A stretch of DNA of 39,925 bases from a virus. The notes below the pieces were generated by a model that was not told the DNA's origin, searched no databases, and saw nothing but the letters and a program-made list of their open reading frames with translations. Location of the stretch: positions 1 to 39,925 of IMG/VR virus record IMGVR_UViG_3300006990_000067; one strand, 5' to 3'. A program made the translations under genes and the position numbers. This document shows, piece by piece, positions 14,802-35,145 of this stretch (positions within the stretch are counted from its first letter, which is position 1; every line of letters begins with the position of its first letter).

Positions 14802-15110
14802 GTGATATACACTAATACCAAACCCCGCAAAAAGACCCCCCGTGGCAAGGGATGGCAAACAAAAGTTTACTACCAAAAGATGAAGAAACCGGAGTTTAAA
14901 GAACTGGTTTCTACAAAAACTTTTGTCAGAGGTGCCGACCATCGTGATAAATATCCAAGTAGAGATGATGGTTGCGGGGTTGCAGCTAAAAAAGAAACTC
15001 TTAAATATACTGGTACACTAGTCAAAGGTATTGCAACAATGCACAAGTCTAATGCTGTACCAGTAATTGACCAACAACAAGCGGAAGACATTTCCCGAAT
15101 GAGAAGATAA
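14802..15110 (+). CDS. Conserved marine phage protein, unknown function
   Basis: A 102-residue basic protein starting at GTG, with GAGGTGAG as ribosome site. The N-terminus is Lys-rich, the middle has FVRGADHRDKYPS, and the end has GIATMHKSNAVPV followed by a closing RMRR. I associate this arrangement with a small protein common in T4-like marine phages, function unknown. It ends with TAATG coupling to the desaturase and is the first gene of the long run. Confidence 0.75.
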   Translation: MIYTNTKPRKKTPRGKGWQTKVYYQKMKKPEFKELVSTKTFVRGADHRDKYPSRDDGCGVAAKKETLKYTGTLVKGIATMHKSNAVPVIDQQQAEDISRMRR

Positions 15111-15841
15111 TGAGAAAGGCTGTTTTAAAACAAAACAACTCTTGGGCTCCGATTACACTTTTAGTATCTCAAATTATTGCACAACTATCGGTCATCCCAA
15201 TGATACTACTTGCAGAGGCATGGCAATGGATTCCATTTGTCATAGTTTACTGCGGCATGATGCTTGGTATTACAATGGGATATCATAGATTCTATTCCCA
15301 CCGATCTTACAAGTGTCCGAAATCAATTGAATACATTCTTTTGTTCTTTGCACATATCATGATGGTTGGTCCTGCAATAACATGGTCAGCAAATCATAGA
15401 GAACATCACAAGTATGCTGATACCCCAGACGATCCCCACTCCCCATATTACAGGGGTGTCATGCTTGCGTATTTTGGTCAGGTGTTGATTAATATTAATT
15501 TTAAGTTTGTTAGAGATTTGTTGAGAAGTGACCTACACCGAAATCAGGTCAAATATTACTGGCACGTTATTGCAGTGTGGGCAGGACTCTTGTACTTGAT
15601 TGACCCGATGGCAATTCTGTATGCATGGCTAGCTCCTGCTGGTGCCGCAAAACTGATTGGGTCTCTAGTGTTTACATTCTCTCACCGTGGAAGAAAGGCT
15701 CACAGTGATACATGGGTAGGGCTGATTACTCTTGGTGAAGGATTCCATGCTGTACACCATGAGAGTAGAAATGTTGTATGGCATAAATTTGATCTTGGAG
15801 GTCAACTGATTCGGTTAATCGACAAGGAGGTAACTCAGTGA
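15110..15841 (+). CDS. Membrane fatty-acid desaturase (delta-9 type)
   Basis: This 243-residue protein is a di-iron membrane desaturase that would introduce a double bond into fatty acyl chains at the inner membrane. The three histidine boxes are intact: H-R-F-Y-S-H (H59-H64), H-R-E-H-H with KYADTPDDPHS (from H96), and H-A-V-H-H (about H213-H217). At least four hydrophobic helices surround them. Length is short but all catalytic boxes are present. It starts on the last base of the preceding stop. In a phage it may adjust membrane fluidity or modify a lipid precursor; the following oxygenase and sugar genes suggest the latter is possible. Confidence 0.92.
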   Translation: MRKAVLKQNNSWAPITLLVSQIIAQLSVIPMILLAEAWQWIPFVIVYCGMMLGITMGYHRFYSHRSYKCPKSIEYILLFFAHIMMVGPAITWSANHREHHKYADTPDDPHSPYYRGVMLAYFGQVLININFKFVRDLLRSDLHRNQVKYYWHVIAVWAGLLYLIDPMAILYAWLAPAGAAKLIGSLVFTFSHRGRKAHSDTWVGLITLGEGFHAVHHESRNVVWHKFDLGGQLIRLIDKEVTQ

Positions 15842-16560
15842 ATTTTCATGATGAGTTTGAACATAAGTTTATCGACTTCAACCGAGAAAGGTGGACTTAT
15901 GAAACGTGCGATAATATTCCGTTCCAGAGTCAATTAGACAGTCACCCAAAACTGACACCAGAAATATCTGCACACCTCAGAGAAATATTGCCAAAAGATG
16001 CACTACATGCAATCGAAGTCGAGGCGTGTTACTTTTTGTTTGGTCAGGAAAATCAACAGGTAGACCGACCCACATTAGCAAAAGATATTGAGTTTCCAGA
16101 TGAGATATATGGAAATGCGACTGACATTGTGGACGAGTATCTAGACACCGTTAAAGATTACTTCTCTTTCTTGGTGGGCAATAGTAAGTATCGAACGTAC
16201 TCAGATAGGTTGATGAAACACTGCCATCCAATGGCGGTTATTGATGGTATAGAATACCGAAACACCTTTTCGATTATCTACCCCACTAGAGTCGTTGAAG
16301 AACAAAACGAGGTGTTCAAAATATTTTATGCGGAAGAAACTCCGTGGTCAGACAACCCCGATTTTTATAACGCCACTGTGTTGCCTTTGCAGACCCCAGA
16401 AAAAGACGTATATGAAATTGCTATGCCAAAAGATGGCCAGGCGTTGTTGTTGTATTTTAATTCATGCAATGGTATTCACTGGATAGAAAACCTTTGTGAC
16501 AATAATTATATGTGTCATATATTTGATGCAGCTACTTTGAGTAAACCACTATATGCTTAA
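15838..16560 (+). CDS. Unknown protein in the modification run
   Basis: A 240-residue acidic soluble protein starting at GTG 15838, overlapping the desaturase stop. No family recognised. The N-terminal third is helical and charged. The centre contains MKHCHPMAVIDG and RNTFSIIYPTR, and the end contains LLLYFNSCNGIHWIENL with two cysteines and a His. A cupin-like beta domain is conceivable but not established. It sits between a desaturase and a 2-oxoglutarate oxygenase and overlaps both, implying a shared pathway. Confidence 0.62.
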   Translation: MNFHDEFEHKFIDFNRERWTYETCDNIPFQSQLDSHPKLTPEISAHLREILPKDALHAIEVEACYFLFGQENQQVDRPTLAKDIEFPDEIYGNATDIVDEYLDTVKDYFSFLVGNSKYRTYSDRLMKHCHPMAVIDGIEYRNTFSIIYPTRVVEEQNEVFKIFYAEETPWSDNPDFYNATVLPLQTPEKDVYEIAMPKDGQALLLYFNSCNGIHWIENLCDNNYMCHIFDAATLSKPLYA

Positions 16561-17251
16561 AAAGAGAGACTTGCCGATTTGCGTTGAGATTCCGAATATT
16601 AAGTTTGACATCGAAAAAATAAAACTTGAGATAGAGAAGATCAAAGACAACTGGACTGACATATACGAGGCAAACCCAGGCATTACAAATCTTCATGAAG
16701 GTTCATTTGTGCAAAATGCATATGAGAACTTAAAAGAGATTCCCTTGATGACTCTCAGTGAAGAACAGATGAAACATGCCAACGAATATACTGTAGAGGA
16801 TTTGGGTTCCAGTATCAGAGACCGGATTCGCAACAAAAAGGCGAAAGGTGCAAACTTGCCGCCAGCTGCAAATGAAATGTTGTGGGATGTACCAACCGAT
16901 ATTGCTCGCGATACATATTTCATGGATGTTCTGTACGACAAATTTCAATCAGAGACATGTCGAGCCAGACTGCACTATCTTGCGCCAGGCAAGTCTCTTG
17001 CACCACACATAGACTATGACCCCTCGTATGGTGTTCGCGTTGTGTGTCCCATACAGGGTACTCAGGAGACCACCAATCACTTCTGGGTGAATGGTGAGGA
17101 ACAGACTTACAATCTTCCCGCAGACGGTAGAGTATGGTTTTTGAATACGGGTTTCAAACACTCCGTTGTAAACAATGGAACTGAACCTAGAATTGCTTTA
17201 TTATTAACTTTGAAATCGCAGGAAGATATAGAGTGTCTAGCATTGAAGTAG
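16553..17251 (+). CDS. 2-oxoglutarate/Fe(II) oxygenase, aspartyl-hydroxylase-like
   Basis: A 232-residue protein. The double-stranded beta-helix core has ARLHYLAPGKSLAPHIDYD (H-x-D facial iron ligands), a long loop with PIQGTQE and HFWVNGEE, then FLNTGFKHSVVN (distal His ligand) and PRIALLLT (Arg for 2-oxoglutarate). This is the aspartyl/asparaginyl hydroxylase-type arrangement. It would hydroxylate a protein, lipid or sugar substrate; phages commonly carry 2OG oxygenases, often of unknown target. The N-terminal 90 residues are helical. Start and stop overlap both neighbours. Confidence 0.83.
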   Translation: MLKKRDLPICVEIPNIKFDIEKIKLEIEKIKDNWTDIYEANPGITNLHEGSFVQNAYENLKEIPLMTLSEEQMKHANEYTVEDLGSSIRDRIRNKKAKGANLPPAANEMLWDVPTDIARDTYFMDVLYDKFQSETCRARLHYLAPGKSLAPHIDYDPSYGVRVVCPIQGTQETTNHFWVNGEEQTYNLPADGRVWFLNTGFKHSVVNNGTEPRIALLLTLKSQEDIECLALK

Positions 17252-17880
17252 TACAGTATCATTCGCAACACAAAAAAGAATTAGAAGATTTTCGATTGTT
17301 GTCCTTTGAAGAGGGCAATGACAGTTTGGCATATGACAAATATGATCCAGACAATATTAACGGTGCTTCTTGGTTAGTTTATGTAGACGGGGAACTTGCA
17401 GCAGTAAGTGTTGCAGAGGCTAGTCACTATACTGGTGACGAAGATATCTCCGCCAGAGTTTGCCGATTACATATTGCAAAAAAGTTTCGACCTTCTTGGT
17501 TGGGTATGATTGTCGGAGAATATCAAATCTGGTGGGCTAGAAAGAACAAGTATAAAGTACTTTACTTTACCCACGACATACACAATAGGGCGATCAATGC
17601 AATGTATCAACACAAACGATACGGCGCACCTGTCACCGACCTACAGAAAAAACTTAACCATCTCTGGCACACCGATTGGTATCAGTCTTTGCAGACAGAT
17701 AAGAGGTTGTTGTTCAGAGTAGACGAAGAAAGTGATTTCTTACAATATGTTTATTACTGGAAATTTGATAAAAACTTTGAGTGGACTCCAAGGAAGAATG
17801 TGATTTGGATTCCTCACAACGGCGACATTCAGAAAAAGATGACAAATCAGGAAATTTTAGAAAATGCAACTATCGGTTAA
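17233..17880 (+). CDS. GNAT-like acyltransferase
   Basis: A 215-residue protein with a GNAT-type central strand-loop: GELAAVSVAEASHYTGDED, then CRLHIAKKFRPSWLGMIVGEYQ (the acyl-CoA binding loop), and a downstream IHNRAINAMYQHKRYG that resembles the C-terminal GNAT helix. The Q/R-x-x-G-x-G/A signature is not canonical, so the assignment is moderate. It starts at GTG 17233, inside the previous gene. Placed between an oxygenase and a methyltransferase, it fits a small-molecule or amino-sugar modifying enzyme. Confidence 0.62.
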   Translation: MSSIEVVQYHSQHKKELEDFRLLSFEEGNDSLAYDKYDPDNINGASWLVYVDGELAAVSVAEASHYTGDEDISARVCRLHIAKKFRPSWLGMIVGEYQIWWARKNKYKVLYFTHDIHNRAINAMYQHKRYGAPVTDLQKKLNHLWHTDWYQSLQTDKRLLFRVDEESDFLQYVYYWKFDKNFEWTPRKNVIWIPHNGDIQKKMTNQEILENATIG

Positions 17881-18460
17881 AACTGTTTCGTCTTGGTTTA
17901 ACTATATCAGAGAAAATCCAGAAGACAAGAGATTCCTTGAGTGTTTTTGGGACACGCAACTTGCCAGTAAAGAACGAGTGTTGCAGCTATACCCAGAGTT
18001 TTTTCACTCTGGACCTTGTTATGTTTTTGGTGGGTGGTATGGACTACTTCCCCACTTGTTACTTGACAACAAGTATGTAAAAAGGGTATACTCTATTGAT
18101 ATTGACCCAGACTGTGAACGTGTGGGAAACATTTATTTCAGAAAAGAAAATCTGGAATATGTAACTGGCGACATGAAAGATTTTGTTTATTCAGAGAATC
18201 CAGACGTTGTTATTAACACCAGTACCGAACATGTTGACCAAGAGACCTTTGACATCTGGTACGAAAATATTCCGCGTAGAACTTTTATAATCATGCAGGG
18301 AAATGATCTCGACATACCCGAACATGTTAGACCGTTCAAGGACTTGGAAGAATTTTTAAATCTCAACAGGTCGCCAGTTAATCACTGTGATGAAATGGAA
18401 TTGCCTGGCCCAAACAACACAACTTACAAACGATTTACGATGACAGGATTTAAAGAATGA
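17864..18460 (+). CDS. Class I SAM-dependent methyltransferase-like protein
   Basis: A 198-residue protein with a Rossmann-type start: GPCYVFGGWYGLLPHLLL (glycine-rich loop position), then VYSIDIDPDCE with an acidic residue for the ribose hydroxyls, then LEYVTGDMKDF and PDVVINTSTEHV. The order fits class I methyltransferases, although motif I is degenerate (GGWYG rather than GxGxG). The C-terminal part could contact a substrate; nothing identifies it. Stop overlaps the start of the sugar dehydrogenase. Confidence 0.68.
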   Translation: MQLSVKTVSSWFNYIRENPEDKRFLECFWDTQLASKERVLQLYPEFFHSGPCYVFGGWYGLLPHLLLDNKYVKRVYSIDIDPDCERVGNIYFRKENLEYVTGDMKDFVYSENPDVVINTSTEHVDQETFDIWYENIPRRTFIIMQGNDLDIPEHVRPFKDLEEFLNLNRSPVNHCDEMELPGPNNTTYKRFTMTGFKE

Positions 18461-19242
18461 AAATTGCGATTGTTGGATATGGATTTGTCGGCAAGTCTAC
18501 AGAACTTTTATTTTCTGAGTGTGAGACTTTGATTCATGACCCCGATTTGGGTTATGAAATCGACAACTGGTCTGATGTAGACTTTACATTTATTTGCGTA
18601 CCAACTCCACTGGACTTTGCCTTCACAAACTCTTTGCCTGGCGATAAGAATGGTATGATGTTTAGTGGCGTGTCTAACAAGATCGTTAAAGATGCAATCA
18701 AGTCTGTTCGAGGAAAGACTACCAGTAATCAACGCGGCGGCCAGATCGTTGTCAGAAGTACTCTGGGACCGGATCAAATAGAAGACGGTTGGATTTACAT
18801 GCCAGAATTTTTGCGAGAGAATTCATGGGAAAAAGATACCGCATACAAGACCCCCATAATTGTTGGGTCAAATGCAGAACAAAAAGAAGAAGTAGAAACT
18901 CTTCAGTCATATTTTCCCTTTATGAAGATGGTATATAACCTCACCCCAAGAGAGGCTGCAATATATAAGATTAGCAGAAATTCTTTTCTTTCTATGAAAG
19001 TGATGTTTGCGAATCACTTGAAGTCTGTTTGTGATAAGTATGAGTGTGATTTTGACGGCGTAGTAGATGTGTACAAACTAGAAAATGAGTTTGGCAAATC
19101 TCATTGGGATGTGCCTGGGCCAGATGGAAGAGCGGGGTTTGGTGGCAAGTGTTTGCCAAAAGATACTTTGCACTACGCAAATTTAATTTCATATAAAAAC
19201 ATGTTCCATCAAATACTGGACGATAATGAAAACACCCGTTGA
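18457..19242 (+). CDS. UDP-sugar 6-dehydrogenase-like protein, short form
   Basis: A 261-residue protein related to UDP-glucose/GDP-mannose dehydrogenases, which oxidise a nucleotide sugar C6 alcohol to a uronic acid with NAD. It has the N-terminal Rossmann GYGFVG (residues 7-12), a CVPTPLD segment, the central helical region, and the catalytic GFGGKCLPKD with Cys232. It ends soon after this Cys, so the C-terminal UDP-binding domain of about 100 residues is missing compared with the 380-440 residue family. A second homologue lies at 30542. It may be redundant, act in a heteromer, or have altered substrate. Confidence 0.85.
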   Translation: MKIAIVGYGFVGKSTELLFSECETLIHDPDLGYEIDNWSDVDFTFICVPTPLDFAFTNSLPGDKNGMMFSGVSNKIVKDAIKSVRGKTTSNQRGGQIVVRSTLGPDQIEDGWIYMPEFLRENSWEKDTAYKTPIIVGSNAEQKEEVETLQSYFPFMKMVYNLTPREAAIYKISRNSFLSMKVMFANHLKSVCDKYECDFDGVVDVYKLENEFGKSHWDVPGPDGRAGFGGKCLPKDTLHYANLISYKNMFHQILDDNENTR

Positions 19243-20056
19243 ATCTATGAATAAAAAGGTGATATCAGTCCATCTAGGACACAATAAAGAATATACTCTT
19301 AACGTAGAACTCTTTGACCACCGAGTATCGAACCGAATATGGGAAATGATACAAGTAGCAGATAATGTAGACTTTGTTTCTCGCGTGGAGTTTTATAAGT
19401 TTGGTAAAACTGAGTCACAAGTAGAATCCGACTTATATGAAACAATAGAAGAACTAAAACGATTAAAACCTGATACCTTTACACTGGATTATGATTTAAA
19501 TAGATTACATGAAAATTTTCCTGAGTTGGTACGCACAGAAACATCTTCATCGATAAAACACTGTTTGACAATGTTTAATTATCACCTGCATCATCTTGAA
19601 AGAATGCGTCAAGGTGGTGGAAGACAATTTTTGTTCTGTAGCAACATTGAGTCAGAACCCTTACAAGATGAAGACTATAATCTTTTTACTATAGGCAATA
19701 AAGAGAACATTGCTTATATGAACTACCCCCATGTAGGTAAGAGTGTTACAGAAATAGTGCAACAAGAAGATATAGAAATTCCATCACAACATATTCTTCC
19801 TACAAGTGTAATCAAACCAGATTTATTGTTTCACTTAGACGAAGATAGATGGATAGGGAACGAACAAACAATATTAGAATATATAAACTCATGGCTTGTT
19901 AAAATACAACATAAGTTACCGTATCCTATTAACGATAAAAGATTGGCACTTGGACACATACCTATAGGTAAAATAATCGATCCAAACATAACTAGTATAA
20001 CAGAAAATCAATACATACACAGCATAGAAGCTATATGCACCGGAACTAAATACTAG
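19226..20056 (+). CDS. Unknown protein, AT-rich, before the radical SAM array
   Basis: A 276-residue acidic soluble protein with no recognised family. It contains KKVISVHLGHNKEYTL at the start, a helical middle with YHLHHLERMRQGG, a stretch YMNYPHVGKSVTE, and a conserved-looking IPIGKII near the end. Composition is visibly more AT-rich than the neighbouring genes. It overlaps the dehydrogenase stop and is followed, after 26 bases, by the first radical SAM gene. It may be a substrate-binding or accessory component; nothing proves it. Confidence 0.6.
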   Translation: MKTPVESMNKKVISVHLGHNKEYTLNVELFDHRVSNRIWEMIQVADNVDFVSRVEFYKFGKTESQVESDLYETIEELKRLKPDTFTLDYDLNRLHENFPELVRTETSSSIKHCLTMFNYHLHHLERMRQGGGRQFLFCSNIESEPLQDEDYNLFTIGNKENIAYMNYPHVGKSVTEIVQQEDIEIPSQHILPTSVIKPDLLFHLDEDRWIGNEQTILEYINSWLVKIQHKLPYPINDKRLALGHIPIGKIIDPNITSITENQYIHSIEAICTGTKY

Positions 20057-20082: not shown

Positions 20083-21462
20083 ATGACACAGACAAATGAA
20101 CATTGGATTGAAGTACTAAAAGAAAAACGGATTAAGATAAACGATATCAGTCCGTCTTTTTGTTCTGCTAAGTGGTTGCAAACAACACTGATGTTGCAGA
20201 ACGGATATAACCATTCCTGTCACCACCCCTCACCACACAAAATCCCCGTTGCAGAGGTCATGGAAAATCCTGCAGCCTTGCATAACAGCAACTACAAGAA
20301 ACAACAAAGAATCAAAATGATAAACGGGGAGAGACCCAGAGAGTGCGACTATTGTTGGAGAATAGAAGACCAAAACAAAGATCATTTCTCTGACCGACAC
20401 TATAAGACTTCTGATTGGTGGGCTTGGGATAAGGTCGATGTTATTGCAACCAGTGACCCCACGGAAGATGTATATCCAACTTACCTTGAGGTGTCTTTTA
20501 GTAACGCATGTAACTTTGCTTGTGCGTATTGTTCGCCGGAGATATCTTCATCGTGGATGAAAGACATTGAGTCTGATGGTCAATATCCAGTACAGTTTGG
20601 TTCTCACAGTTTAGACTATTTGCGAGAGACAGAAAAGTTTCCTTACAAAAACTCAGACCCAAATCCTTATGTTGATGCTTTCTGGGAGTGGTTTCCAGAA
20701 GCACTTCCGCATCTAAAAGTTTTCCGAATAACTGGTGGAGAACCCACCATGAGTAAAGATGTTTGGAAAGTATTGGACTACATTTATGAGAATGCTCAAC
20801 CAGAGTTGTCTATTGCAATCAATAGTAATTTGGGAACCGACCCTCGACTCATACAAAGACTTATCGATTCTGTAAATAAAGTAAAAGATAAAGTAAAACA
20901 GATTGAGATATATACAAGTTGTGAAGCAACGGGCAGTCAGGCCGAATATGCTCGAGACGGGTTAGATTATGGATACTGGTATGCAAACGTGCAACGTGTT
21001 TTAAATGAGACGGATGCCAATGTTGCAATCATGACAACACTCAACATTCTCAGTCTGCCCACGTTTTGTAAATTCATCGAAGACATTATGAAACTCAGAG
21101 TAGAATTTAATAGAGACCTTGCACACAACAGAGTGCCTCTGAGTGTAAACTATTTAAGATTTCCACCACACTTGCAATGCACTCTACTTGACCCGATTAC
21201 AAGGGTGTCCTATGCGGGAGACATTGAGAACTTGGCGGAGTCTTGGTTGAAGTATTATTCACCGGACAAGTTTGCCAGAATTTATTTGGAAGAGTTTGAC
21301 CAGATACAGAGGTTCTGCGAGTATCTTAGAATGACCAAAACCGCAGATAAGTATAGAGGCGATTTTGTCAAGTACATAAATGAGTACGACAGAAGAAGAC
21401 AAAAAGATTTTAGAAATACGTTCCCACAGTATGCACATTTGTTAGAGGATTGGAATGAGTAA
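20083..21462 (+). CDS. Radical SAM protein 1 of six (twitch/SPASM-like, subtype A)
   Basis: A 459-residue radical SAM enzyme. The [4Fe-4S] motif is CNFACAYC (C143, C147, C150), followed by the FRITGGEP SAM-contact segment. Extra cysteines before the core (C27, C46 in SCHHP, C88 and C91 in ECDYCW) could bind an auxiliary cluster, a twitch/SPASM-like arrangement placed N-terminal. Together with the next gene it forms a subtype marked by FC[SG]AKW and SCHHPxxHKIP. The reaction and substrate are unknown; such proteins usually act on peptides or sugars. It is the only gene in the run preceded by a real gap (26 bases). Confidence 0.9.
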   Translation: MTQTNEHWIEVLKEKRIKINDISPSFCSAKWLQTTLMLQNGYNHSCHHPSPHKIPVAEVMENPAALHNSNYKKQQRIKMINGERPRECDYCWRIEDQNKDHFSDRHYKTSDWWAWDKVDVIATSDPTEDVYPTYLEVSFSNACNFACAYCSPEISSSWMKDIESDGQYPVQFGSHSLDYLRETEKFPYKNSDPNPYVDAFWEWFPEALPHLKVFRITGGEPTMSKDVWKVLDYIYENAQPELSIAINSNLGTDPRLIQRLIDSVNKVKDKVKQIEIYTSCEATGSQAEYARDGLDYGYWYANVQRVLNETDANVAIMTTLNILSLPTFCKFIEDIMKLRVEFNRDLAHNRVPLSVNYLRFPPHLQCTLLDPITRVSYAGDIENLAESWLKYYSPDKFARIYLEEFDQIQRFCEYLRMTKTADKYRGDFVKYINEYDRRRQKDFRNTFPQYAHLLEDWNE

Positions 21463-22954
21463 AGAATTTGACTTGATTAAGTATCGCGAAGATATTCTTG
21501 ATACAAAGTCTACTAGTTTTTGTGGTGCGAAATGGTACAATGCAACCACATGGCTGGGAAGTGGCACTACTGCATCTTGCCACCATCCACCCGCTCACAA
21601 AATTCCTCTTGATGAGGTTAAAGTAGACCCTTCTGCCATTCACAACACTCGACACAAGAAGGCGATGCGAAAAATGATGCAACGTGGCGAACGTCCACGG
21701 GAGTGTGAGTATTGTTGGAAGGTTGAAGACATGGAGACCGATGCGATCTCTGATAGAGTATTCAAGTCTATCATCTATTCCGAACAAGACTTACAGAAAG
21801 CATATACTACGGACCACAATGAAAGTGTCGATCTGAAAACATTTGAGATTGCATTTGATCGTACCTGTCAGTTGGCATGTTCCTATTGTAATGCATCTTT
21901 CTCTACAACATGGGCAAAAGATATCACCAAGAAGGGTGCGTATCAGAACATGGTGTCAGATGGTGCGGCCGCTTTTCAACAAGATGGTGCTTGGGCAGAA
22001 CCCTATGCAAAGGATGAAGACAATCCTTACATCCAAGCATTTTGGGATTGGTGGGAAGACGGTCTCTCTGACAGTCTAGAAGAGTTGCGTATTACTGGCG
22101 GTGAACCACTGATGTCAGATCAGGTATGGAAACTGTTTGATTGGTTCAACGAAAATAACAGTAAGATGAGATTTGCAATTAACTCAAATCTTATGGCAAA
22201 AGACAGTTTGATCGAAAGACTTATTGAAAGAAGTCAGGGTGTCGATGACTTCCACCTTTACACAAGTTGTGAGGCTACTGGACTACAGGCTGATTACATT
22301 CGTGACGGACTACACTATGATACATGGAAGAAAAACATGTACAGACTTATGGGTAACTGCAATCTCAAAGGTCTGAATATTATGATGACCATTAACAGTT
22401 TGTGTTTGTTTAGTATAACAGATTTCCTTGATGACGTTTATAAGATGAAACAACACACCGGAACAAAGGCACCCGTTGTAAGTGTAAATCTTTTGCGTTT
22501 CCCAAGTTTCCAATCTCCGCTTGCGCTTCCCGATCATATCAAAGATTACTTGCGAGAACAATTGCAAGATTGGTACAACGAGGTCAAAGAACAACCACTG
22601 TGGCACGATTTTGAAAAGGCCAGTATCGAAAGACTGATTGACTATCTTGTTACCGTTGATGCACCACACAGACGCACCAGCGACAAGATGACACTGTGGA
22701 GAGACTTCAAAACTTTCTTCAAACAATATGATGAAAGAAGAGAACTGTCATTGTCGGTGTTTCCAAAGATTCTAACGGATTGGGTCGATACTATTCCAGA
22801 TACCGAGACGATTGCAGTGCAACTGGTTGATGGTGACAGCACTCGACAATATGACAACGATCCCGATTTAAAAAAGGTTGCAGACGAAGAGGGGTGGGTG
22901 TTAAAACCAGATAATAAAAATATTGACGAACCACTTGGCGACTATGACAAGTAG
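21455..22954 (+). CDS. Radical SAM protein 2 of six (subtype A)
   Basis: A 499-residue paralogue of radical SAM 1. The cluster motif is CQLACSYC (C138, C142, C145), then LRITGGEPLM. N-terminal auxiliary cysteines are C23, C42 (SCHHPP) and C84/C87 (ECEYCW). The family usually has Asn after the first cysteine; here it is Gln. The C-terminal extension of about 60 residues (VQLVDGDSTRQYDND onward) is not present in protein 1 and may add a binding module. Start overlaps the preceding stop by 8 bases. Confidence 0.9.
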   Translation: MSKEFDLIKYREDILDTKSTSFCGAKWYNATTWLGSGTTASCHHPPAHKIPLDEVKVDPSAIHNTRHKKAMRKMMQRGERPRECEYCWKVEDMETDAISDRVFKSIIYSEQDLQKAYTTDHNESVDLKTFEIAFDRTCQLACSYCNASFSTTWAKDITKKGAYQNMVSDGAAAFQQDGAWAEPYAKDEDNPYIQAFWDWWEDGLSDSLEELRITGGEPLMSDQVWKLFDWFNENNSKMRFAINSNLMAKDSLIERLIERSQGVDDFHLYTSCEATGLQADYIRDGLHYDTWKKNMYRLMGNCNLKGLNIMMTINSLCLFSITDFLDDVYKMKQHTGTKAPVVSVNLLRFPSFQSPLALPDHIKDYLREQLQDWYNEVKEQPLWHDFEKASIERLIDYLVTVDAPHRRTSDKMTLWRDFKTFFKQYDERRELSLSVFPKILTDWVDTIPDTETIAVQLVDGDSTRQYDNDPDLKKVADEEGWVLKPDNKNIDEPLGDYDK

Positions 22955-24245
22955 ACCTTACTTTTGCACCGCACCTTGGACCCATACATATGCATCTCCA
23001 CAAGGAGAACGTAGACTTTGTTGTGCTAGCAGAGAAGAGGCATCTTTTCAAAAACAATACATTGATAGTAGTACTGCCGGGGGTAAGTTTGCCCCCAAGA
23101 GTTTAGAAGAACATTGGAACAGTGATTACATGAAAGACATTCGTAAAAGAATGTTGAACGGAGAACGACTGCCCCAATGCGAAGTTTGTAATGACCAGAT
23201 TCTAAATCTACACACTTACAAAAAATATTTTACAGAGACTTTGTTTCCCCACAAAGTAGATGATATAATTGCGAACACGCGGGAAGACGGCCACTATGAT
23301 GAGATGCCCGTTTCATATGATTATCGTATATCAAACCTATGCAACTTTAAGTGTAGGATGTGTGGCGAACAATTGTCCAGCAGTTGGGAAGCAGAGAAAA
23401 AGAAACTCAATCTCATTGATGTAACACAAGAACCTTGGTTGGAACCCGATACAAGGAAACAGATTGGCAATTTCCAAAAAGAAGTTTTGGAAGAGGAATT
23501 GCAGCGTGCGGTTGACAACGAAACTATAGAAGAGATTTATTGGGTTGGCGGTGAACCTCTGATGTGGGAACGTCATTGGACTGTAATGCAACAACTTGTC
23601 GATAGTGGCCATGCAAAGAATGTCACGGTGCGATACAACACAAATCTGAGCAGAGTGTCTTTCGGTGGAACTCACTTATATGACTTGTTGCCACACTTTA
23701 AGAAAGTGAACATTTGTGCAAGTATTGACGGTGCATACACTGTTGGTGAGTATATCAGAGACGGATTGAATTGGAGTGAGTGGATTGAAAACTTTCAAGA
23801 GGGATTATTTTTGATTGACCAGTTTGGTGATGACGCAATGGTGTTTGATGTAACATTGACAACTCCCGGCCTATTCTATCTGAAGGATTTGTTTCATGAG
23901 GCATTTAGACTGAATGTAAAGTCATACTTCAAGTTTACTTTTGCATTTGACCCGTCTGTTGTAATGAGTCCGATGTGTTTGCCAAAACATATTTCAAAAC
24001 CACTTTGCGAAAGTCTTATTTCGGACTTTGCACCGTATACCACTTGGAAGAATCGTGTGTATACCGACTCTTTAAACAACATGATAAATAGGGAGTCCTT
24101 TGATATACAATGGCCAGATACATATCGATCTGGGTTGAAACGCGGAAAAGAATTTCAAGAATTTTTAGATGAAAAACGAAATAGTAAAATTATGTTTAGA
24201 GATACTTTATATGGTAATGCACTTGAGTGGTGGGACAATATATGA
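22944..24245 (+). CDS. Radical SAM protein 3 of six (subtype B)
   Basis: A 433-residue radical SAM protein with CNFKCRMC (C133, C137, C140) and IYWVGGEPLMW. The N-terminus has the subtype B auxiliary-cluster arrangement: C8 in FCTAPWTH, then C26-C27, and C79/C82. I chose the ATG at 22944 because the conserved FCTAPW motif begins just after it; an upstream in-frame ATG at 22923 lies well inside the previous gene. It overlaps the preceding stop. Substrate unknown. Confidence 0.9.
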   Translation: MTSRPYFCTAPWTHTYASPQGERRLCCASREEASFQKQYIDSSTAGGKFAPKSLEEHWNSDYMKDIRKRMLNGERLPQCEVCNDQILNLHTYKKYFTETLFPHKVDDIIANTREDGHYDEMPVSYDYRISNLCNFKCRMCGEQLSSSWEAEKKKLNLIDVTQEPWLEPDTRKQIGNFQKEVLEEELQRAVDNETIEEIYWVGGEPLMWERHWTVMQQLVDSGHAKNVTVRYNTNLSRVSFGGTHLYDLLPHFKKVNICASIDGAYTVGEYIRDGLNWSEWIENFQEGLFLIDQFGDDAMVFDVTLTTPGLFYLKDLFHEAFRLNVKSYFKFTFAFDPSVVMSPMCLPKHISKPLCESLISDFAPYTTWKNRVYTDSLNNMINRESFDIQWPDTYRSGLKRGKEFQEFLDEKRNSKIMFRDTLYGNALEWWDNI

Positions 24246-25507
24246 GTAATACTTTTTGTCCTCTTCCTTGGAATCATCTAGCAACACACCCGCATGGTGT
24301 TTGCACCCTTTGTTGTGAGTCTGAACAGGCCGAGGGGATTTCTCAAGCATTCAATAATGGTAATCCCAGAAAGATGATAACCTTGCAGAATGTAGATGAC
24401 TTTGAGCAAATTACTAACTCCGATAGTTTCAGTAGAGTTAGAAAACAAATGCTCAATGGAGAACAACCAGAAGAGTGTCGTAAATGTTGGGACTTGGAAA
24501 GCGTTGGTGTCAAGAGTAAACGATACTACGAAAGTCGCCGAGTCCCGATGGACATCGAACATGCAAAGAAGATTACAAATGAAGATGGTACACTCAATGA
24601 GGTGGAGTATGAGTTTGTAGAGTTGCGTTTGGGCAATCATTGCAATGTGCAGTGTCGTACATGCAACCCATATTCAAGTTCTCGGTGGAGTAAAGATTGG
24701 GATGTCATCTACCCAGAGAGACCAGCTTTGCCTGAGTTGATGTCCCAACAAAATTTTAACTGGCCGCTGGATCAGGGATTCTGGGACAAACTTATTCAAA
24801 GATGCGATAAACTCAAGGTGTTGTATATTAACGGAGGAGAACCTTTCATCGTTGATAAACACATGGACTTCTTATCGACTCTGGTTGAACGGGGTCTGTC
24901 GAAAAATGTAGAAATAGTTTATTCGACAAACTGCACTGTTATAAACAAAAACTACGAGGATGTTTGGAAAAACTTTAAACATATTCAGTTTATGTTGTCT
25001 ATTGATGATGTTGGAGATAGAAACGAATATATTAGAACGTATACCAAATGGGAAAAGGTATTAGAGTTTCTTGATTGGATGATGAGTATGTCTGCCAGAT
25101 ATAAAAATATTAACTATAACATATTGCAGACCGTATCAACATATAACGTTTATTATATTCCAGAGTTTTATGATTTCTTCAAGGATAAGGTGCCACTGAT
25201 AGGTCATCCACTGGAAGATGACTCGTTGCACATAGGACATAACTTTGTAAACGACCCAGAACACTTTGACTGTAGAATACTCCCCAGAGAGGTACAGGCG
25301 ACGATTGTGGACCGCCTAGAGGGGTATCAGGGGTACAATGACATCAAGAATTACTTCAGTGTAGATGGCGACAGTCGATGGGGAGGCGCGGTACACGGGA
25401 ACATGAAAACGTTTTTTGAAAAAACTAGATCGATAGACGAACTAAGAAAACAGTCTTTTGAAAAGACTTTTCCAGAATTTTATGAGGTAATAAAAAACTA
25501 TGAGTGA
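24242..25507 (+). CDS. Radical SAM protein 4 of six (subtype B)
   Basis: A 421-residue protein with CNVQCRTC (C134, C138, C141) and LYINGGEPFI. N-terminal cluster ligands are C6 (FCPLPWNH), C21, the C24-C25 pair and C79/C82. The ATG at 24242 overlaps the previous TGA (ATGA), fitting tight coupling. It has no unusual C-terminal module. It differs from its neighbours in the third N-terminal cysteine (C21), so the auxiliary cluster may be bound differently. Confidence 0.9.
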   Translation: MSNTFCPLPWNHLATHPHGVCTLCCESEQAEGISQAFNNGNPRKMITLQNVDDFEQITNSDSFSRVRKQMLNGEQPEECRKCWDLESVGVKSKRYYESRRVPMDIEHAKKITNEDGTLNEVEYEFVELRLGNHCNVQCRTCNPYSSSRWSKDWDVIYPERPALPELMSQQNFNWPLDQGFWDKLIQRCDKLKVLYINGGEPFIVDKHMDFLSTLVERGLSKNVEIVYSTNCTVINKNYEDVWKNFKHIQFMLSIDDVGDRNEYIRTYTKWEKVLEFLDWMMSMSARYKNINYNILQTVSTYNVYYIPEFYDFFKDKVPLIGHPLEDDSLHIGHNFVNDPEHFDCRILPREVQATIVDRLEGYQGYNDIKNYFSVDGDSRWGGAVHGNMKTFFEKTRSIDELRKQSFEKTFPEFYEVIKNYE

Positions 25508-26753
25508 CCAAAAACCACTGTGTCTCCTCCCTTGGCTACACTTGCATACATGGCCTAATGGAAATGTGTATCCATGTTGTGTTACTCCTATGGAATATAT
25601 TGCCGGGAATCTAAAAGAAAATACTCTAGAGGAAATATTCAATAGCGATCTGATGAAAAACATTCGCAAGGATTTGTCTAGTGGAGTTAAGACCGAATCT
25701 TGTCAACGATGCTGGGCTCAAGAGGAACGTGGTGGCCACTCTATGCGAATGAGAGCCAATGAAAGTTGGAAACACCACGAACAGGACATTATTGCTAGAA
25801 CAAGACCAGACGGTTCTGTTGAAAACATGAAACTGCCTTATTGGGATTTTCGTTTTTCCAATATCTGCAATTTCAAGTGTCGAAGCTGTGGACCGCAATT
25901 AAGTAGTGGTTGGTATAGTGACACCAAGAAAATTGCAGTCCTAGAAACTGGAAAAGCCTTTTTGCCAGACGATGTTCCAACAGACAGAAACCTTGAGTTG
26001 TGGGAACAGATTGAACCACATTTTGAAACTGTTGAAGAAATATATTTTGCTGGTGGAGAACCCCTCATCATGGAGGAACACTATCGCATCTTGAAAAAAT
26101 TAGATAAGATGGGAAAACATGGCGTACATTTACGATACAACACCAATTTCAGTGAGATGCGATATAAAGACATGCATGTTTTGGATTTTTGGAAAAAGTT
26201 CAAAAGTGTTGAAGTGGGTGCTAGTATTGATGGTATGGAAAAGGAGGGAGAGTATATTCGTAGTGGATTTAAGTGGGAACAGTTTGTTAGCAACAGAAAC
26301 GAAATGAAAGAGAAATGCCCACATGTTCATTTTTATGTCACATGCACTACTAGTATCCAGAATGCTTACCATATAATTCCTTTTCATCACCGTCTCGTTG
26401 AGGAAAAGTTTATTGATAATTACGATAGGTTTTTTATCAACATAGTTACTGAACCCTCCATGTTAGACATGCGTATACTTCCAAAACATCATAAAGAAAT
26501 TCTATCAGAAGCTTACACTAGGCACGCTAACTTTTTAACCATGGCCGAGGGGTTCCATGAAATGCCTGCTGTCAATGCGAGAAGAGGGTTTGTTAGTCTG
26601 AAACACCATCTGTTGCAAGATCACCCTGACCCCTATCCTCGCGGGGACAGTCTTCTAGAAATATTCAAATACAAGATGGACCAATACGACCAAATTCGCG
26701 GAGAGAACTTTGCGGAGACATTTCCTGAGATGAAGGATTTGGTTAGTGGATAA
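25500..26753 (+). CDS. Radical SAM protein 5 of six (subtype B)
   Basis: A 417-residue protein with CNFKCRSC (C123, C127, C130) and IYFAGGEPLIM. The N-terminus is the best example of subtype B: C8 in LCLLPWLHLH, then a Gly-Asn turn and the C26-C27 pair (VYPCC), then C68/C71 with CW. It overlaps both neighbours by 8 bases. The first 30 residues (C-x-L-P-W-x-H followed by G and a Cys pair) look like a SPASM domain moved to the N-terminus. Confidence 0.9.
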   Translation: MSDQKPLCLLPWLHLHTWPNGNVYPCCVTPMEYIAGNLKENTLEEIFNSDLMKNIRKDLSSGVKTESCQRCWAQEERGGHSMRMRANESWKHHEQDIIARTRPDGSVENMKLPYWDFRFSNICNFKCRSCGPQLSSGWYSDTKKIAVLETGKAFLPDDVPTDRNLELWEQIEPHFETVEEIYFAGGEPLIMEEHYRILKKLDKMGKHGVHLRYNTNFSEMRYKDMHVLDFWKKFKSVEVGASIDGMEKEGEYIRSGFKWEQFVSNRNEMKEKCPHVHFYVTCTTSIQNAYHIIPFHHRLVEEKFIDNYDRFFINIVTEPSMLDMRILPKHHKEILSEAYTRHANFLTMAEGFHEMPAVNARRGFVSLKHHLLQDHPDPYPRGDSLLEIFKYKMDQYDQIRGENFAETFPEMKDLVSG

Positions 26754-27909
26754 GATTTGTCTGTTGCCGTGGATTCACACGGAGTTTACAACTGAAGGCA
26801 CTGCAAACCCATGTTGTCTTTATCGTGGTGAACCTATGGGAGACCTTAAAGAAGAGGGCCTTCTGGATATTTGGCGAGGAGACAAGTATAACAATCTGAG
26901 ACAGGAATTCTTAGATGGTAAAATGCCAGCGGGGTGTTCTATGTGTTGGGACAATGAGGACGCGGGATACAAGTCAAAAAGATTGCAGGACTTGGAGAGG
27001 TTTTCTTCCCACATAGACAAAGTTGGTGATTGTGTTGAAGACCCAGTTTATCTAGACTTAAAGTTTGGGACTTTATGCAATCTCAAGTGTCGGTCATGTG
27101 GCAGTGTGAACTCTTCTAGCTGGAAATCGGATGAGTTAAAATTATATGACAGAATCCTTGACAATAAGGACGCACTTTGGATAAAAAAGAATCCTGGCGT
27201 GTGGGATGAATTAGAAAAAATAATGAGCACTGTTGAGCACATGGATTTCACTGGCGGTGAACCATTCATGATAGATCAACACTACAACCTTTTGCGGTCA
27301 GCGGTAGAATTTGGATATGCAAAGAACATCTCCATTCACTACAACACTAACGGAACAATCAGACCACCGAAAGAGGTTTTTGAACTGTGGAAAGAATTCA
27401 AAGATGTGGAGATCATGTTCAGTTTGGACGGTGTTGGTGAACAGTTTGAATACATTAGAAGTGGTGCTGCGTGGGAAGAGGTCTGGGAAAACTTTAACTA
27501 CTTCAAGTCACAGAAGTTTTTGAGAATTCAAATTTGTCATACCGTCAGCATTTTTAATGTATATTATCTAAAAGATTTCGTCACCGCCTTTTCTGACACC
27601 GATATCTATTTTAACTTGTTGCACTATCCAAGACAGTATTGCATCAGGAATATGCCGGACGTTTGTAAAGATAAGGCCAAAGATAAGATTATAAATATTG
27701 CGGGTGCTGATTCTATCATAAATTTTATGATGCAAGATGCAGAACATGATCGACTTGATACTGGATTTTTTTCAGTAACAGAAAAACTTGATGATATTAG
27801 AAATGAAAAGTTTCAAGACATTTTTCCAGAATTTTATGAGATTTTGATTGATGGCGGATTACGAAATAGACCTTGGCACAATTTTCTCATTACAACAGAA
27901 AATTCTTAG
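26746..27909 (+). CDS. Radical SAM protein 6 of six (subtype B)
   Basis: A 387-residue protein with CNLKCRSC (C111, C115, C118) and MDFTGGEPFMI. N-terminal cluster ligands: C5 (ICLLPWIH), C23-C24, C64/C67. It starts at GTG 26746, inside the previous gene. It is the shortest of the six and lacks about 30 residues mid-region relative to protein 5. The following glycosyltransferase-like gene starts 59 bases before its stop. Confidence 0.9.
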   Translation: MDKICLLPWIHTEFTTEGTANPCCLYRGEPMGDLKEEGLLDIWRGDKYNNLRQEFLDGKMPAGCSMCWDNEDAGYKSKRLQDLERFSSHIDKVGDCVEDPVYLDLKFGTLCNLKCRSCGSVNSSSWKSDELKLYDRILDNKDALWIKKNPGVWDELEKIMSTVEHMDFTGGEPFMIDQHYNLLRSAVEFGYAKNISIHYNTNGTIRPPKEVFELWKEFKDVEIMFSLDGVGEQFEYIRSGAAWEEVWENFNYFKSQKFLRIQICHTVSIFNVYYLKDFVTAFSDTDIYFNLLHYPRQYCIRNMPDVCKDKAKDKIINIAGADSIINFMMQDAEHDRLDTGFFSVTEKLDDIRNEKFQDIFPEFYEILIDGGLRNRPWHNFLITTENS

Positions 27910-29518: not shown

Positions 29519-30545
29519 CTATTTTACAAATGGACCTTCTATTGCTTCTGGTAGTATTCTTATAACAGAATTTGACAGAAAATTTTTTAAGACATTAACG
29601 TCTTCTATTCCCGATGACGTTTGTTTTATTGATACTACTTGGTTCAGTAATCCCAAAGTTTTCAAAAACTTTGTTGACTGGCAACTTACCATTGACAAAC
29701 CCAGAGCTTTTCTATATTCTGGTATGGATTGGTCCAATGAGAATTGCGAATCACTGACAAGATCGGCCCACACATTTTTTCAACATAGGTTCAACTGCAA
29801 ATATGTTGGTAATACAAATAAGGGCCACTACTTTAGTTTTTGGGTAGAGTTTATCGACGCACACAGACAATATTTTTTTGATGATAGGTATATAAGAGAT
29901 CATCATTTTGAACATCACTTTATGTGTCTCAATAATAAGTGCAATGACCACAGATCATATTTGTTGAATAAAATGTTTCAAGACGAGTCGGTGTGGAAAC
30001 GTGGGAATATTTCTGTTATACAACAAGATAATAGATATAATTTCCCACATCCAATAATCCTTGAAGAAGACAGACCGCCGGAACTGGTTGAAAAATTTCT
30101 TGAGCATGAAACTCTTTCAGATAAACATATCGTAAATGATATTGTATCTCTGGGAGACCCCAGACATTGGCGATCACACTTTGCCACCGTGGTGACAGAA
30201 AGTTGTCACCATACGGATGTTTTTTTGAGTGAAAAGATATTCAAACCGATAATCGGTATGAGACCCTTCTTGGTTTTGGGTGACAGAAATATCTATGTAA
30301 AACTGAAAGAACTTGGGTTCGACACCTTTGAAGATTTGTTTCCGAACGTGGGATTAGATAATGAAAATTATGAACGTCGAGCAGAAAATTTATTAAAGGA
30401 CTTGAGAAAAATTTGTCTCACCCCTCTAAAAGACCTTGACGATGTATATAATTCCATATATACTAGACTAGAGCGCAATCGTGAAAATATGATTTTACTG
30501 ATTGAAAAGAACAAAAGATGGATACGGGATTTGGGTAAATTATGA
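29511..30545 (+). CDS. Glycosyltransferase-like protein, second copy
   Basis: A 344-residue protein sharing the signature of the preceding gene: VFLSEKIFKPIIGMRPFLVLG and LKELGFDTFEDLF at about residues 240-280. The N-terminal half differs, so it is a shortened relative rather than a duplicate. It overlaps the preceding stop by 8 bases and the following dehydrogenase by 4. A GT-B-type transfer of an activated sugar is likely, using products of the flanking dehydrogenases. Confidence 0.62.
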   Translation: MTNYFTNGPSIASGSILITEFDRKFFKTLTSSIPDDVCFIDTTWFSNPKVFKNFVDWQLTIDKPRAFLYSGMDWSNENCESLTRSAHTFFQHRFNCKYVGNTNKGHYFSFWVEFIDAHRQYFFDDRYIRDHHFEHHFMCLNNKCNDHRSYLLNKMFQDESVWKRGNISVIQQDNRYNFPHPIILEEDRPPELVEKFLEHETLSDKHIVNDIVSLGDPRHWRSHFATVVTESCHHTDVFLSEKIFKPIIGMRPFLVLGDRNIYVKLKELGFDTFEDLFPNVGLDNENYERRAENLLKDLRKICLTPLKDLDDVYNSIYTRLERNRENMILLIEKNKRWIRDLGKL

Positions 30546-31687
30546 AGATTGGTTTTATTGGATTTGGGAAGTTAGGCCAACCATGCGGCGAAGTAATCTC
30601 CAAGAAAGGACATGATGTCGTTGCATATGATGTGAATCATCTTTTGATAGATACTTTTGTTGAGATGAAAGAGACTATTCAAGATGCGGTCACCGACAGG
30701 GATGTTGTCTTTGTTGCAGTGCCAACTCCCCACGACCCAAACTATGAAGGGTCTGCTCCCACGCACTTTATGCCCCCAAAAGATTTTAGTTATGATATTG
30801 TCAGGGATGTTTTGTGGGAAGCAAATAAACATATGACTAAAGATCAACTGCTTGTGTTGATTAGTACTGTATTGCCAGGCACTGTCCGAAGAGAGTTTAT
30901 TCACTTGGTGCCGAATACTCGTTTTGTTTACAACCCGTATTTGATTGCGATGGGTACTGTTGATTGGGATATGATAAACCCAGAGATGGTTATGATCGGC
31001 ACGGAAGACGGAACTGAAACTGGTGATGCAAAAGAACTCAAAGAATTTTATCAATCTATTATGGAAAATGATCCTAGATATGTGATAGGTACTTGGGATG
31101 AGTGTGAATGTATTAAAGTATTTTACAACACCTTTATCAGTGCCAAGATCGGTCTTGTAAATATGATACAAGACGTTGCAGAGAAACAGGGCAACATTAA
31201 TGTTGATGTTGTTGCGGGTGCATTGCGTGACAGTACTCAGAGAATTATGGGCCCAGGCTATATGAAGCCAGGGATGGGTGATGGTGGTGCTTGTCACCCC
31301 AGAGATAATATTGCCCTCAGATTCATGGCAGAGAAACTGCACCTTGGATATGACCTATTTGCAAGTATCATGCAGGCAAGAGACAAACAGGCAGAGAATA
31401 TGGCTTTTAGTATTCTCAAACTCGGAAGTAATATTTTCTTCACTTCCGATTCTTATAAACCGCATGTAGAGTATACCAATGGTAGTTACAGTTTGTTGGT
31501 GCAACACTATGTCAAGTCTCATGGTGCAAAAATTACAAATGCAAGTGATGCTGATGTAATTGTTCTTGTACACGAAAGTGATTCAATTTTTGAAGAAGAA
31601 TTAAAAGAGGGTGCTATTGTATTTGACCCTTGGAGAAGTTATAATAGTGATACTTACGAAGTCATTCATTACGGAGACACCCGATGA
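30542..31687 (+). CDS. UDP-sugar 6-dehydrogenase-like protein, long form
   Basis: A 381-residue homologue of UDP-glucose/GDP-mannose dehydrogenase. It has the N-terminal Rossmann FIGFGKLGQP, the VAVPTPHDP segment, and the catalytic GDGGACHPRD with Cys251, in a clear family position. Unlike the short form at 18457 it keeps a C-terminal region (from about 300, with SDADVIVLVHESD) corresponding to the UDP-binding domain. Oxidation of a UDP- or GDP-sugar to the uronic acid is the expected activity. Starts in the overlap ATGA. Confidence 0.88.
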   Translation: MKIGFIGFGKLGQPCGEVISKKGHDVVAYDVNHLLIDTFVEMKETIQDAVTDRDVVFVAVPTPHDPNYEGSAPTHFMPPKDFSYDIVRDVLWEANKHMTKDQLLVLISTVLPGTVRREFIHLVPNTRFVYNPYLIAMGTVDWDMINPEMVMIGTEDGTETGDAKELKEFYQSIMENDPRYVIGTWDECECIKVFYNTFISAKIGLVNMIQDVAEKQGNINVDVVAGALRDSTQRIMGPGYMKPGMGDGGACHPRDNIALRFMAEKLHLGYDLFASIMQARDKQAENMAFSILKLGSNIFFTSDSYKPHVEYTNGSYSLLVQHYVKSHGAKITNASDADVIVLVHESDSIFEEELKEGAIVFDPWRSYNSDTYEVIHYGDTR

Positions 31688-31806
31688 AAAGCATACGAAA
31701 ATTCTATCGCAGAATGAAACAAAAGTTTGATGATTGGAAGATGCGAAGAAAAATTAAAAAACGATTGAAAGAAATTAGGGATCGCGATCCGTTCATCTAT
31801 GATTAA
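31684..31806 (+). CDS. 40-residue basic peptide between dehydrogenase and carbamoyltransferase
   Basis: A 40-codon frame from the ATG at 31684, overlapping the dehydrogenase stop (ATGA) and extending 8 bases into the carbamoyltransferase. The peptide is strongly basic and helical, ending in RDPFIYD. Tight overlap on both sides supports translation. I believe similar Arg/Lys-rich peptides ending in DPFIY precede carbamoyltransferase genes in other marine phages. It could be a regulator, a partner, or even a peptide substrate for the radical SAM enzymes; none is shown. Confidence 0.62.
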   Translation: MKSIRKFYRRMKQKFDDWKMRRKIKKRLKEIRDRDPFIYD

Positions 31807-33223
31807 TTGGGGTGTCAGTGCGGGGTATCATGATGCATCTCTATCTGTTGTAAAAGACGGGGAGATTGTTTTTGCTAGCCATGCAGAAAGATATTCAAGA
31901 CATAAGAATGATAAACACCTCAATGCATTTTTGATTGATGAGGCTCTTGGTTACGGTGAACCGGATGTGGTTCATTGGTATGAGAACCCACTCCTAAAAG
32001 CAACCAGAAGAATCTATTCCGGCCAAAAAAACATTTGGACCAATCCGAAAAAGTATCTGTCCGAACACGGATATAACCCTAGAAAAATGAAGTGGGGAAA
32101 TCATCACCGCAGTCATATGGCTGCAGGATACTACACCAGACCTTTCGAGGATTGCGCCACTCTTGTTATTGATGCAATAGGAGAGTGGACAACAACCTCT
32201 ATCTGGAATAACAACAAACTCGTTTGGAAAAATACATATCCCAATTCGTTGGGGTTGTTTTACTCTGCGTTTACTGACAGAATTGGTCTCAAGGCAAACG
32301 AGGATGAATACATACTCATGGGTATGGCTGCTTATGGAGATAAGGATCGTTTCAAAGACGAAATATTAGAACTTGTCACCAATCAAACAAAGTTTCACAG
32401 AGGGATATCGTGGTGGAGACCGGAACTCACGGAGAAAGATTACTTTGATGTAGCCGCAGCAGTACAATGGGTCTATGAAGGCGAATTAGCAACTCTGTTA
32501 CAAGTCACTCGACAAACCACTGGAAAGAAAAACTTGGTTTTCATGGGTGGATGTGCTTTAAACTGTCTTGCAAACAGATTGATATCAGTTTTCTTTGATG
32601 AGTATTGGATCATGCCAAACCCCGGCGATGCGGGGTCTTCATTGGGGGCTGTTCTTGCAGGAACAAAACAACGGGTCAATTTTGATACGCCATATCTTGG
32701 ACACAATATACAAGGAGAATATCCAAGTGAAGAGATTTTGGAAGAACTTAATAGATATGGAATTGTCGGAGTTGCAAACGGCCGCGCTGAGTTTGGTCCT
32801 CGCGCTTTGGGGAATCGGAGTCTTCTTGCTGATCCTCGCGGCGAATTCATGAAGTCAAAGGTCAACGCGATCAAAAAGAGACAGGAGTTTCGACCCTTTG
32901 CCCCCATAATCAGGGAACGTGACGCAGCAAAGTGTTTTCATGTAAAATCGGGGTTTACTTCTCCATATATGCAAGAAATTGTCAGATGTAGAGACCCAGA
33001 AAAATATCCCGCTATTGTACATAAGGACGGCACTAGTAGAGTCCAGACGGTCAATGAGAGACAACACAGTGGACTTTATAGACTACTTACACTGTGGTAT
33101 CAAGAAACGGGTTGCCCCATGTTATTGAACACAAGTCTCAATATTAAGGGTGATCCTATTGTAAATGATATAAATGATGCAAAAAGATTTGAAAAAAAGT
33201 ATAATGTCAAAGTATGCAGATAA
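31799..33223 (+). CDS. Carbamoyltransferase, NodU/CmcH family
   Basis: A 474-residue enzyme expected to transfer a carbamoyl group from carbamoyl phosphate, through an adenylate intermediate, to a hydroxyl of a sugar or antibiotic-like substrate. Motifs: GVSAGYHDAS at the start, NHHRSHMAAGYY (metal/ATP site histidines), the MGGCALNC segment, GRAEFGPRALGNRS, and the C-terminal NTSLN. The family is usually about 550-600 residues, so this copy is short in the inter-domain region yet has all motifs. It closes the long overlapping run. Confidence 0.92.
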   Translation: MINWGVSAGYHDASLSVVKDGEIVFASHAERYSRHKNDKHLNAFLIDEALGYGEPDVVHWYENPLLKATRRIYSGQKNIWTNPKKYLSEHGYNPRKMKWGNHHRSHMAAGYYTRPFEDCATLVIDAIGEWTTTSIWNNNKLVWKNTYPNSLGLFYSAFTDRIGLKANEDEYILMGMAAYGDKDRFKDEILELVTNQTKFHRGISWWRPELTEKDYFDVAAAVQWVYEGELATLLQVTRQTTGKKNLVFMGGCALNCLANRLISVFFDEYWIMPNPGDAGSSLGAVLAGTKQRVNFDTPYLGHNIQGEYPSEEILEELNRYGIVGVANGRAEFGPRALGNRSLLADPRGEFMKSKVNAIKKRQEFRPFAPIIRERDAAKCFHVKSGFTSPYMQEIVRCRDPEKYPAIVHKDGTSRVQTVNERQHSGLYRLLTLWYQETGCPMLLNTSLNIKGDPIVNDINDAKRFEKKYNVKVCR

Positions 33224-35139: not shown

Positions 35140-35145
35140 AAATAC

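Follow-up and report, generated by a model that had tools for sequence, protein, structure and literature searches.

Six overlapping radical SAM genes in a marine phage fragment

The window analysed here is the whole of record IMGVR_UViG_3300006990_000067, a linear IMG/VR fragment of 39,925 bases to which all positions refer; it comes from a T4-like marine phage and includes gp32, gp59 and PhoH genes. At 20083-27909 it carries six overlapping open reading frames (ORFs) on the same strand, each running into the next, that encode radical S-adenosylmethionine (SAM) enzymes, here called r1 to r6 (Table 1). All six pass the 170-bit cut-off of the NCBIfam model NF033640 (N_Twi_rSAM, radical SAM enzymes with an N-terminal twitch domain), matching along the full model with 292-402 bits and E-values of 1e-87 to 1e-120, and they are exactly the NF033640 matches found in the whole record. 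This model covers the entire family; it neither separates the r1-r6 subfamilies nor names a substrate. Pfam PF04055 scores above its cut-off in four of the six genes, near it in r4 and weakly in r2. Given these family E-values, and given that orthologues keep this order in many contigs, chance can be ruled out.

Alignment of the six proteins (gene 1 numbering) revealed an invariant CxxxCxxC cluster motif (C143/C147/C150), an invariant GGEP SAM-contact motif (G218-G219-E220-P221) and four N-terminal cysteines, C27, C46, C88 and C91, that are likewise present in all six. Because the alignment fits them better, the ATG codons at 22944 and 24242 are probably the starts of r3 and r4, respectively; the TTG at 22923 and the GTG at 24227 chosen by the ORF tool appear to lie too early. 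Identity to gene 1 is 21-38%, and the six are therefore distinct enzymes. Thus, an earlier note made from the letters of this DNA, which had described six consecutive overlapping radical SAM genes, each different and each with the CxxxCxxC, GGEP and additional cysteine signatures, was borne out on all of these points.

The same note had named degeneracy of all six enzymes as the outcome that would refute it; they are intact. The cluster motifs are retained in 309 of 322 full-length relatives, and orthologues of r1 are 79-95% identical. Relative to locus L095 (L numbers are our locus labels), the ratio of non-synonymous to synonymous substitution rates (dN/dS) is 0.035 for r1, 0.039 for r2, 0.073 for r3 and 0.072 for r5, the last with a dS of 4.6, near saturation, while dS for r4 and r6 is saturated, so that the ratio is given for four genes. 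These values point to purifying selection on r1, r2, r3 and r5. Decaying or degenerate copies were rejected as an account of the array on the strength of the intact motifs and the low dN/dS.

Subfamilies, gene order and fusions

In a tree of 133 family members, r1 to r6 each cluster with their counterparts from other phages. Recent tandem duplication was thereby ruled out, as the genes group with these counterparts before their own neighbours. By profile assignment, an array mostly holds a single member of each subfamily, and the subfamilies are ancient, older than the lineages that carry them. The order of the genes was counted in 80 r2-anchored contigs. The labelled gene directly 5' of r2 is r1 in 71 of 77 loci, r3 lies downstream of r2 wherever both occur (67/67), and r4 follows r3 in 51 of 56. 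The order r1-r2-...-r3-r4 is hence nearly fixed across differing gene settings, which answers positively the suggestion in the earlier note that synteny be sought in other marine phages. Two such settings were found 5' of r1: a methyltransferase-like gene in the lineage of the window, as against a gene near tail-fibre genes in a second lineage.

Fusions provide a further line of evidence. In the relative L168, a single 819-aa ORF combines r4 with another N-twitch domain; both halves exceed the cut-off and both motif sets are intact, and the UDP-sugar dehydrogenase of L168 is 75% identical to that of the window. Further fused N-twitch pairs were identified in L111, L122, L024 and L036, and in L075 one bacterial ORF of 1189 aa combines a member of the radical SAM family with a methyltransferase and with a WbsX glycosyltransferase domain. 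Such fusions support joint work by the enzymes and, in the case of L075, a glycan setting. Taken together, the one-per-subfamily composition, the conserved order and the fusion of adjacent members are consistent with consecutive steps on one substrate, and the successive action proposed in the earlier note is thus plausible and has more in its favour than the letters alone could show, though it is unproved.

Individual members nevertheless differ in their histories, since r5 is only 58% identical to its L095 orthologue (9950-11194) and r1 is 95% identical. This suggests that r5 was replaced or has evolved rapidly within the array, and modules have therefore probably been exchanged. It also bears on a rival explanation, in which the enzymes are independent, act on separate substrates (several sugars, for example) and are merely kept together in a host-interaction island. 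Gene replacement of this kind and extra members that differ among phages would fit that explanation, as would a copy number ranging from one to fourteen, but it sits poorly with arrays that hold one member per subfamily in near-fixed order across lineages and with the fusion of adjacent members, and we regard it as improbable.

Distribution of the arrays

Longer contigs of the same lineage encode seven N-twitch enzymes arranged as in the window, and their r1-r6 orthologues are 61-81% identical to those found here; two of these records give eight matches, the eighth falling under the NF033640 cut-off. Among 50 loci with at least three copies, the usual array size is 4-7; arrays of 4-14 are common among related marine phage contigs, and a whole record may hold as many as 14 copies. 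Arrays also occur in bacteria. Two Bdellovibrionota metagenome-assembled genomes (MAGs) pack their over-cut-off copies, 13 in one and 14 in the other, into about 30 kb, where both strands are used and other genes intervene. The MAG contig with 13 such genes (L354, L355) is 917 kb long and holds them within about 29 kb, and its genome has 33 N-twitch matches overall. A unique array was thus ruled out by the multi-copy arrays of other marine phages and of Bdellovibrionota, and the claim that arrays of this length are unusual even in bacteria did not hold.

Rarity is also contradicted by the literature. Nishimura et al. 2017 report a T4-like marine environmental genome, TARA_ERS488813_N000010, that has 12 radical SAM genes (PMC5332604). 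Like the window, it belongs to a T4-like marine phage with numerous genes of this superfamily, and it encodes an A-type Fe-S carrier, as do close relatives of the window; the available portion of that paper counts the genes under Fe-S metabolism and does not describe the order of an array, subfamilies or a link to glycans. An A-type Fe-S carrier gene is present in four close relatives of the window, where it would aid the loading of many clusters. Similarly, the variable regions of pelagimyophages, which are related T4-like phages, differ by radical SAM cassettes, and their host-recognition cassettes combine these with lipopolysaccharide-type genes; a conserved multi-gene array is not described in the part of that article available (PMC7029224). 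What is new here is that the make-up of the array is modular and conserved, that the twitch domain has moved and that the array is tied to sugar genes, rather than the presence of many radical SAM genes per se.

Distant radical SAM clusters were also observed in isolated phages, namely Vibrio phage K566 (L159 11980-18716), in which two genes pass the NF033640 cut-off, and KVP40 (L160).

A twitch domain placed before the barrel

A profile built from 90 family members matches the auxiliary domain of BtrN (4m7t) with an E-value of 2.8e-8 and with all four cluster cysteines aligned, indicating homology by sequence. BtrN is a 2-deoxy-scyllo-inosamine dehydrogenase, a twitch radical SAM enzyme and cyclitol dehydrogenase, that oxidises an aminocyclitol and holds an auxiliary cluster with four cysteines (PMC9012708). 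By analogy, each phage enzyme would probably have one fully ligated auxiliary cluster on its four N-terminal cysteines, in addition to one SAM-cleaving [4Fe-4S] cluster predicted at CxxxCxxC. The arrangement differs, however: published descriptions place SPASM/twitch domains as a C-terminal extension of the barrel (PMC9012708), and the auxiliary domain of BtrN follows its barrel, whereas in the phage enzymes the twitch domain stands before the barrel, so that the C-terminal placement usual for twitch/SPASM enzymes is not seen. The barrels themselves match only weakly.

An AlphaFold2 model of r5, the one member of the six that was modelled, has a mean predicted local distance difference test score (pLDDT) of 93.8 and contains the partial TIM-barrel fold of the radical SAM superfamily. 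Its best fold matches are anSME, BlsE, SuiB, DesII and MoaA, about equal to one another (Z 12-13 for anSME, BlsE, DesII and MoaA), and the substrate is therefore not settled by fold.

These results are relevant to the main rival explanation, according to which the array modifies a peptide or protein, either a ribosomal peptide or a phage tail-fibre protein, as most SPASM enzymes do. The best fold matches include the peptide enzymes anSME, SuiB, CteB and SkfB; moreover, in the second lineage the array comes after a tail-fibre gene that encodes a Peptidase_G2 domain, and proline racemase and ABC transporters lie near some bacterial copies. On the other hand, when the auxiliary domain is compared with PDB sequences, the match with an E-value below 1e-7 is BtrN, a small-molecule enzyme, and the neighbours of the array in the window are sugar genes. 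The genes of the window overlap and leave no conserved small precursor ORF within the array, unlinked precursors being a possibility. A conserved 76-aa ORF does stand between r1 and r2 in sister phages (L008 4897-5124; likewise L010, L012, L019 and L087), where the gap is about 200 bp, but it is missing from the window. On balance, modification of a peptide or protein seems doubtful to us.

Sugar genes around the array

Table 1. Features of the 39,925-base window discussed in the text
Feature	Position	Strand	Evidence
Alternative oxidase	19-585	+	PF01786, E 7.6e-70
Cytochrome c	1086-1502	+	PF00034
790-aa ORF	11376-13748	-	No match in Pfam or PHROG
Low-complexity Asn/Thr/Ser-rich ORF	13669-14751	-	
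Fatty-acid desaturase family protein, heads gene block	15110-15841	+	PF00487, E 4.5e-15
Asp/Asn beta-hydroxylase-like 2-oxoglutarate oxygenase	16553-17251	+	PF05118, E 3.4e-7; position conserved
Conserved gene, methyltransferase-like by eye only	17864-18460	+	No Pfam match; same cluster in 15 array loci
UDP-glucose/GDP-mannose dehydrogenase family, short copy, 261 aa	18457-19242	+	PF00984 and PF03721
276-aa protein	19226-20056	+	No family match and no PDB relative in searches
r1, N-twitch radical SAM enzyme, 459 aa	20083-21462	+	NF033640, 321 bits
r2, N-twitch radical SAM enzyme, 499 aa	21455-22954	+	NF033640, 292 bits
r3, N-twitch radical SAM enzyme, ~433 aa	22944-24245	+	NF033640, 330 bits
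r4, N-twitch radical SAM enzyme, ~421 aa	24242-25507	+	NF033640, 355 bits
r5, N-twitch radical SAM enzyme, 417 aa	25500-26753	+	NF033640, 402 bits
r6, N-twitch radical SAM enzyme, 387 aa, GTG start	26746-27909	+	NF033640, 370 bits
GTa, predicted glycosyltransferase, 556 aa	27848-29518	+	Clusters with GTb; orthologues of relatives in same place
GTb, predicted GT-B-fold glycosyltransferase, 344 aa	29511-30545	+	Model pLDDT 86.9
UDP-glucose/GDP-mannose dehydrogenase family (UGD), long copy	30542-31687	+	PF03721 and PF00984; phrog_9148
NodU/TobZ-type carbamoyltransferase	31799-33223	+	PF16861, PF02543
Permuted tmRNA, alphaproteobacterial type	35106-35486	+	RF04321, 103.5 bits; RF01849 alpha_tmRNA, 55.2 bits
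NAD-dependent nucleotide-sugar epimerase/dehydratase	36044-36967	+	PF01370, E 1.4e-39; phrog_540

In close relatives, the place of the 276-aa protein is taken by a seventh N-twitch radical SAM gene. Downstream of the array lie two putative glycosyltransferases (GTs). GTa has no match in Pfam, NCBIfam or PHROG, and a GT profile compared with PDB sequences gave nothing under an E-value of 0.26. In contrast, the GTb model aligns over all 344 residues (Z 9.7-11.9) with structures that are nearly all GT-B enzymes, including T4 beta-glucosyltransferase, HepE, TarM and PimA, and the best Foldseek hit is WaaG, at an E-value of only 1.3e-3. The model therefore suggests that GTb is a GT-B glycosyltransferase with predicted transfer activity. 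For the NodU-type enzyme, relatives in the PDB are novobiocin carbamoyltransferase, GdmN and TobZ.

The association extends beyond the window. The GT cluster is present in 21 and the NodU gene in 16 of the 50 array loci, and 28 of 39 full r2-anchored segments have the GT cluster. Conversely, an N-twitch radical SAM gene lies no more than 10 kb away in 46 of 49 UGD-anchored loci (loci >15 kb). As a control, loci were anchored on PhoH: N-twitch enzymes occur in 33 of 49 loci anchored on the PhoH of the window versus none of 23 anchored on that of HTVC008M, a phage lacking the array; many of the latter loci have short flanks.

Two further explanations can be weighed against this neighbourhood. 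With T4 beta-glucosyltransferase heading the structural matches of GTb, the array might hypermodify phage DNA or nucleotides, the GT-B enzymes acting like the T4 glucosyltransferases; this match is, however, tied with surface-glycan GT-B enzymes, and the thymidylate-synthase/hydroxymethylase family PF00303 was found in none of 12 records, several of them >130 kb, although these records may be fragments. We find this explanation scarcely credible. Alternatively, the array could modify envelope lipids (lipid A or fatty acids), as might be supposed from the desaturase at the head of the block (orthologues 53-54% identical), from desaturases among bacterial neighbours (3/120) and from a PagP gene close to the radical SAM cluster of Vibrio phage K566. 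No gene for lipid glycosylation or acyl transfer adjoins the array in the window, and the sugar genes are both nearer to it and more constant, so that we consider lipid modification very improbable.

The phage and its host

Among isolates, the gp32 of the window is nearest to that of Pelagibacter phage HTVC008M (52.5%). The host is likely to be alphaproteobacterial. The tmRNA encodes the tag ANDDVYALAA (ARAGORN) and lies between PD-(D/E)XK nuclease and cell-wall hydrolase genes, with identical placement in relatives. Near the start of the window, the alternative oxidase and cytochrome c suggest a possible respiratory bypass; the phage is not cyanophage-like. ARAGORN also called a tRNA-Ile at 14380-14477, which is probably false because it falls inside the Asn/Thr/Ser-rich ORF on the opposite strand and has no Rfam match.

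A candidate role in surface sugars

The reading that we tentatively favour, and hold to be possible, is that r1 to r6 cooperate in the oxidation, epimerisation or deoxygenation of a sugar nucleotide or of a surface glycan under phage direction. We infer the scheme, from cluster ligation and SAM cleavage to the sugar substrate, the order of steps and the biological purpose, as follows. The overlapping genes would allow six intact, distinct enzymes to be made together in a T4-like marine phage, and these may work jointly and perhaps successively, with a sugar nucleotide or growing glycan as their substrate. Hydrogen abstraction could then lead to oxidation to a ketosugar, to epimerisation or to deoxygenation. 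The sugar would come from the flanking UDP-sugar dehydrogenases and epimerase, the GT-B glycosyltransferases would attach it, and the NodU-type enzyme might carbamoylate it. The product could either decorate the virion or modify the envelope of the infected host, blocking co-infection for instance.

The carbamoyltransferase-NadE-UGD cassettes of phages HTVC008M and Bellamy resemble the window in having UGD, carbamoyltransferase and methyltransferase genes. They carry no annotated radical SAM gene, however, and a sugar cassette therefore does not need the array. Several other points weigh against a sugar substrate or the joint action of the enzymes. In the second phage lineage the array is near a tail-fibre gene, and the 120 neighbours of 26 bacterial loci, which hold single copies, include no dominant family and show no glycosyltransferase enrichment. 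For the r5 model, the peptide-acting anSME, SuiB and CteB score level with the sugar-acting BlsE and DesII, and the SkfB paper cautions that sequence similarity is no guide to SPASM/twitch function (PMC6231123). Finally, our order counts treat related contigs as independent; these share ancestry, and the counts are therefore not independent trials.

A fuller version of the surface-sugar reading, unlikely in our estimation, is a modular radical assembly line: ancient, specialised N-twitch enzymes, with modules that can be exchanged, would treat a single glycan or sugar nucleotide one after another, building surface sugars that are not known in cells and changing the surfaces of hosts or virions.

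That several oxygen-sensitive radical enzymes are maintained in a small genome, with their order kept and under purifying selection across ocean phages, implies a costly but valued infection chemistry. Because the arrays are common and similarly ordered in many ocean viruses, they probably represent a toolkit with which an unusual sugar coat is built or altered. The KVP40-like Vibrio phage isolates, with their distant small clusters, offer a route to cultured hosts. If the substrate is indeed a surface sugar, radical enzymology would be tied to the way in which phages compete and recognise their hosts, and the subfamilies, being ordered and swappable, would constitute a natural library of sugar-modifying radical enzymes.

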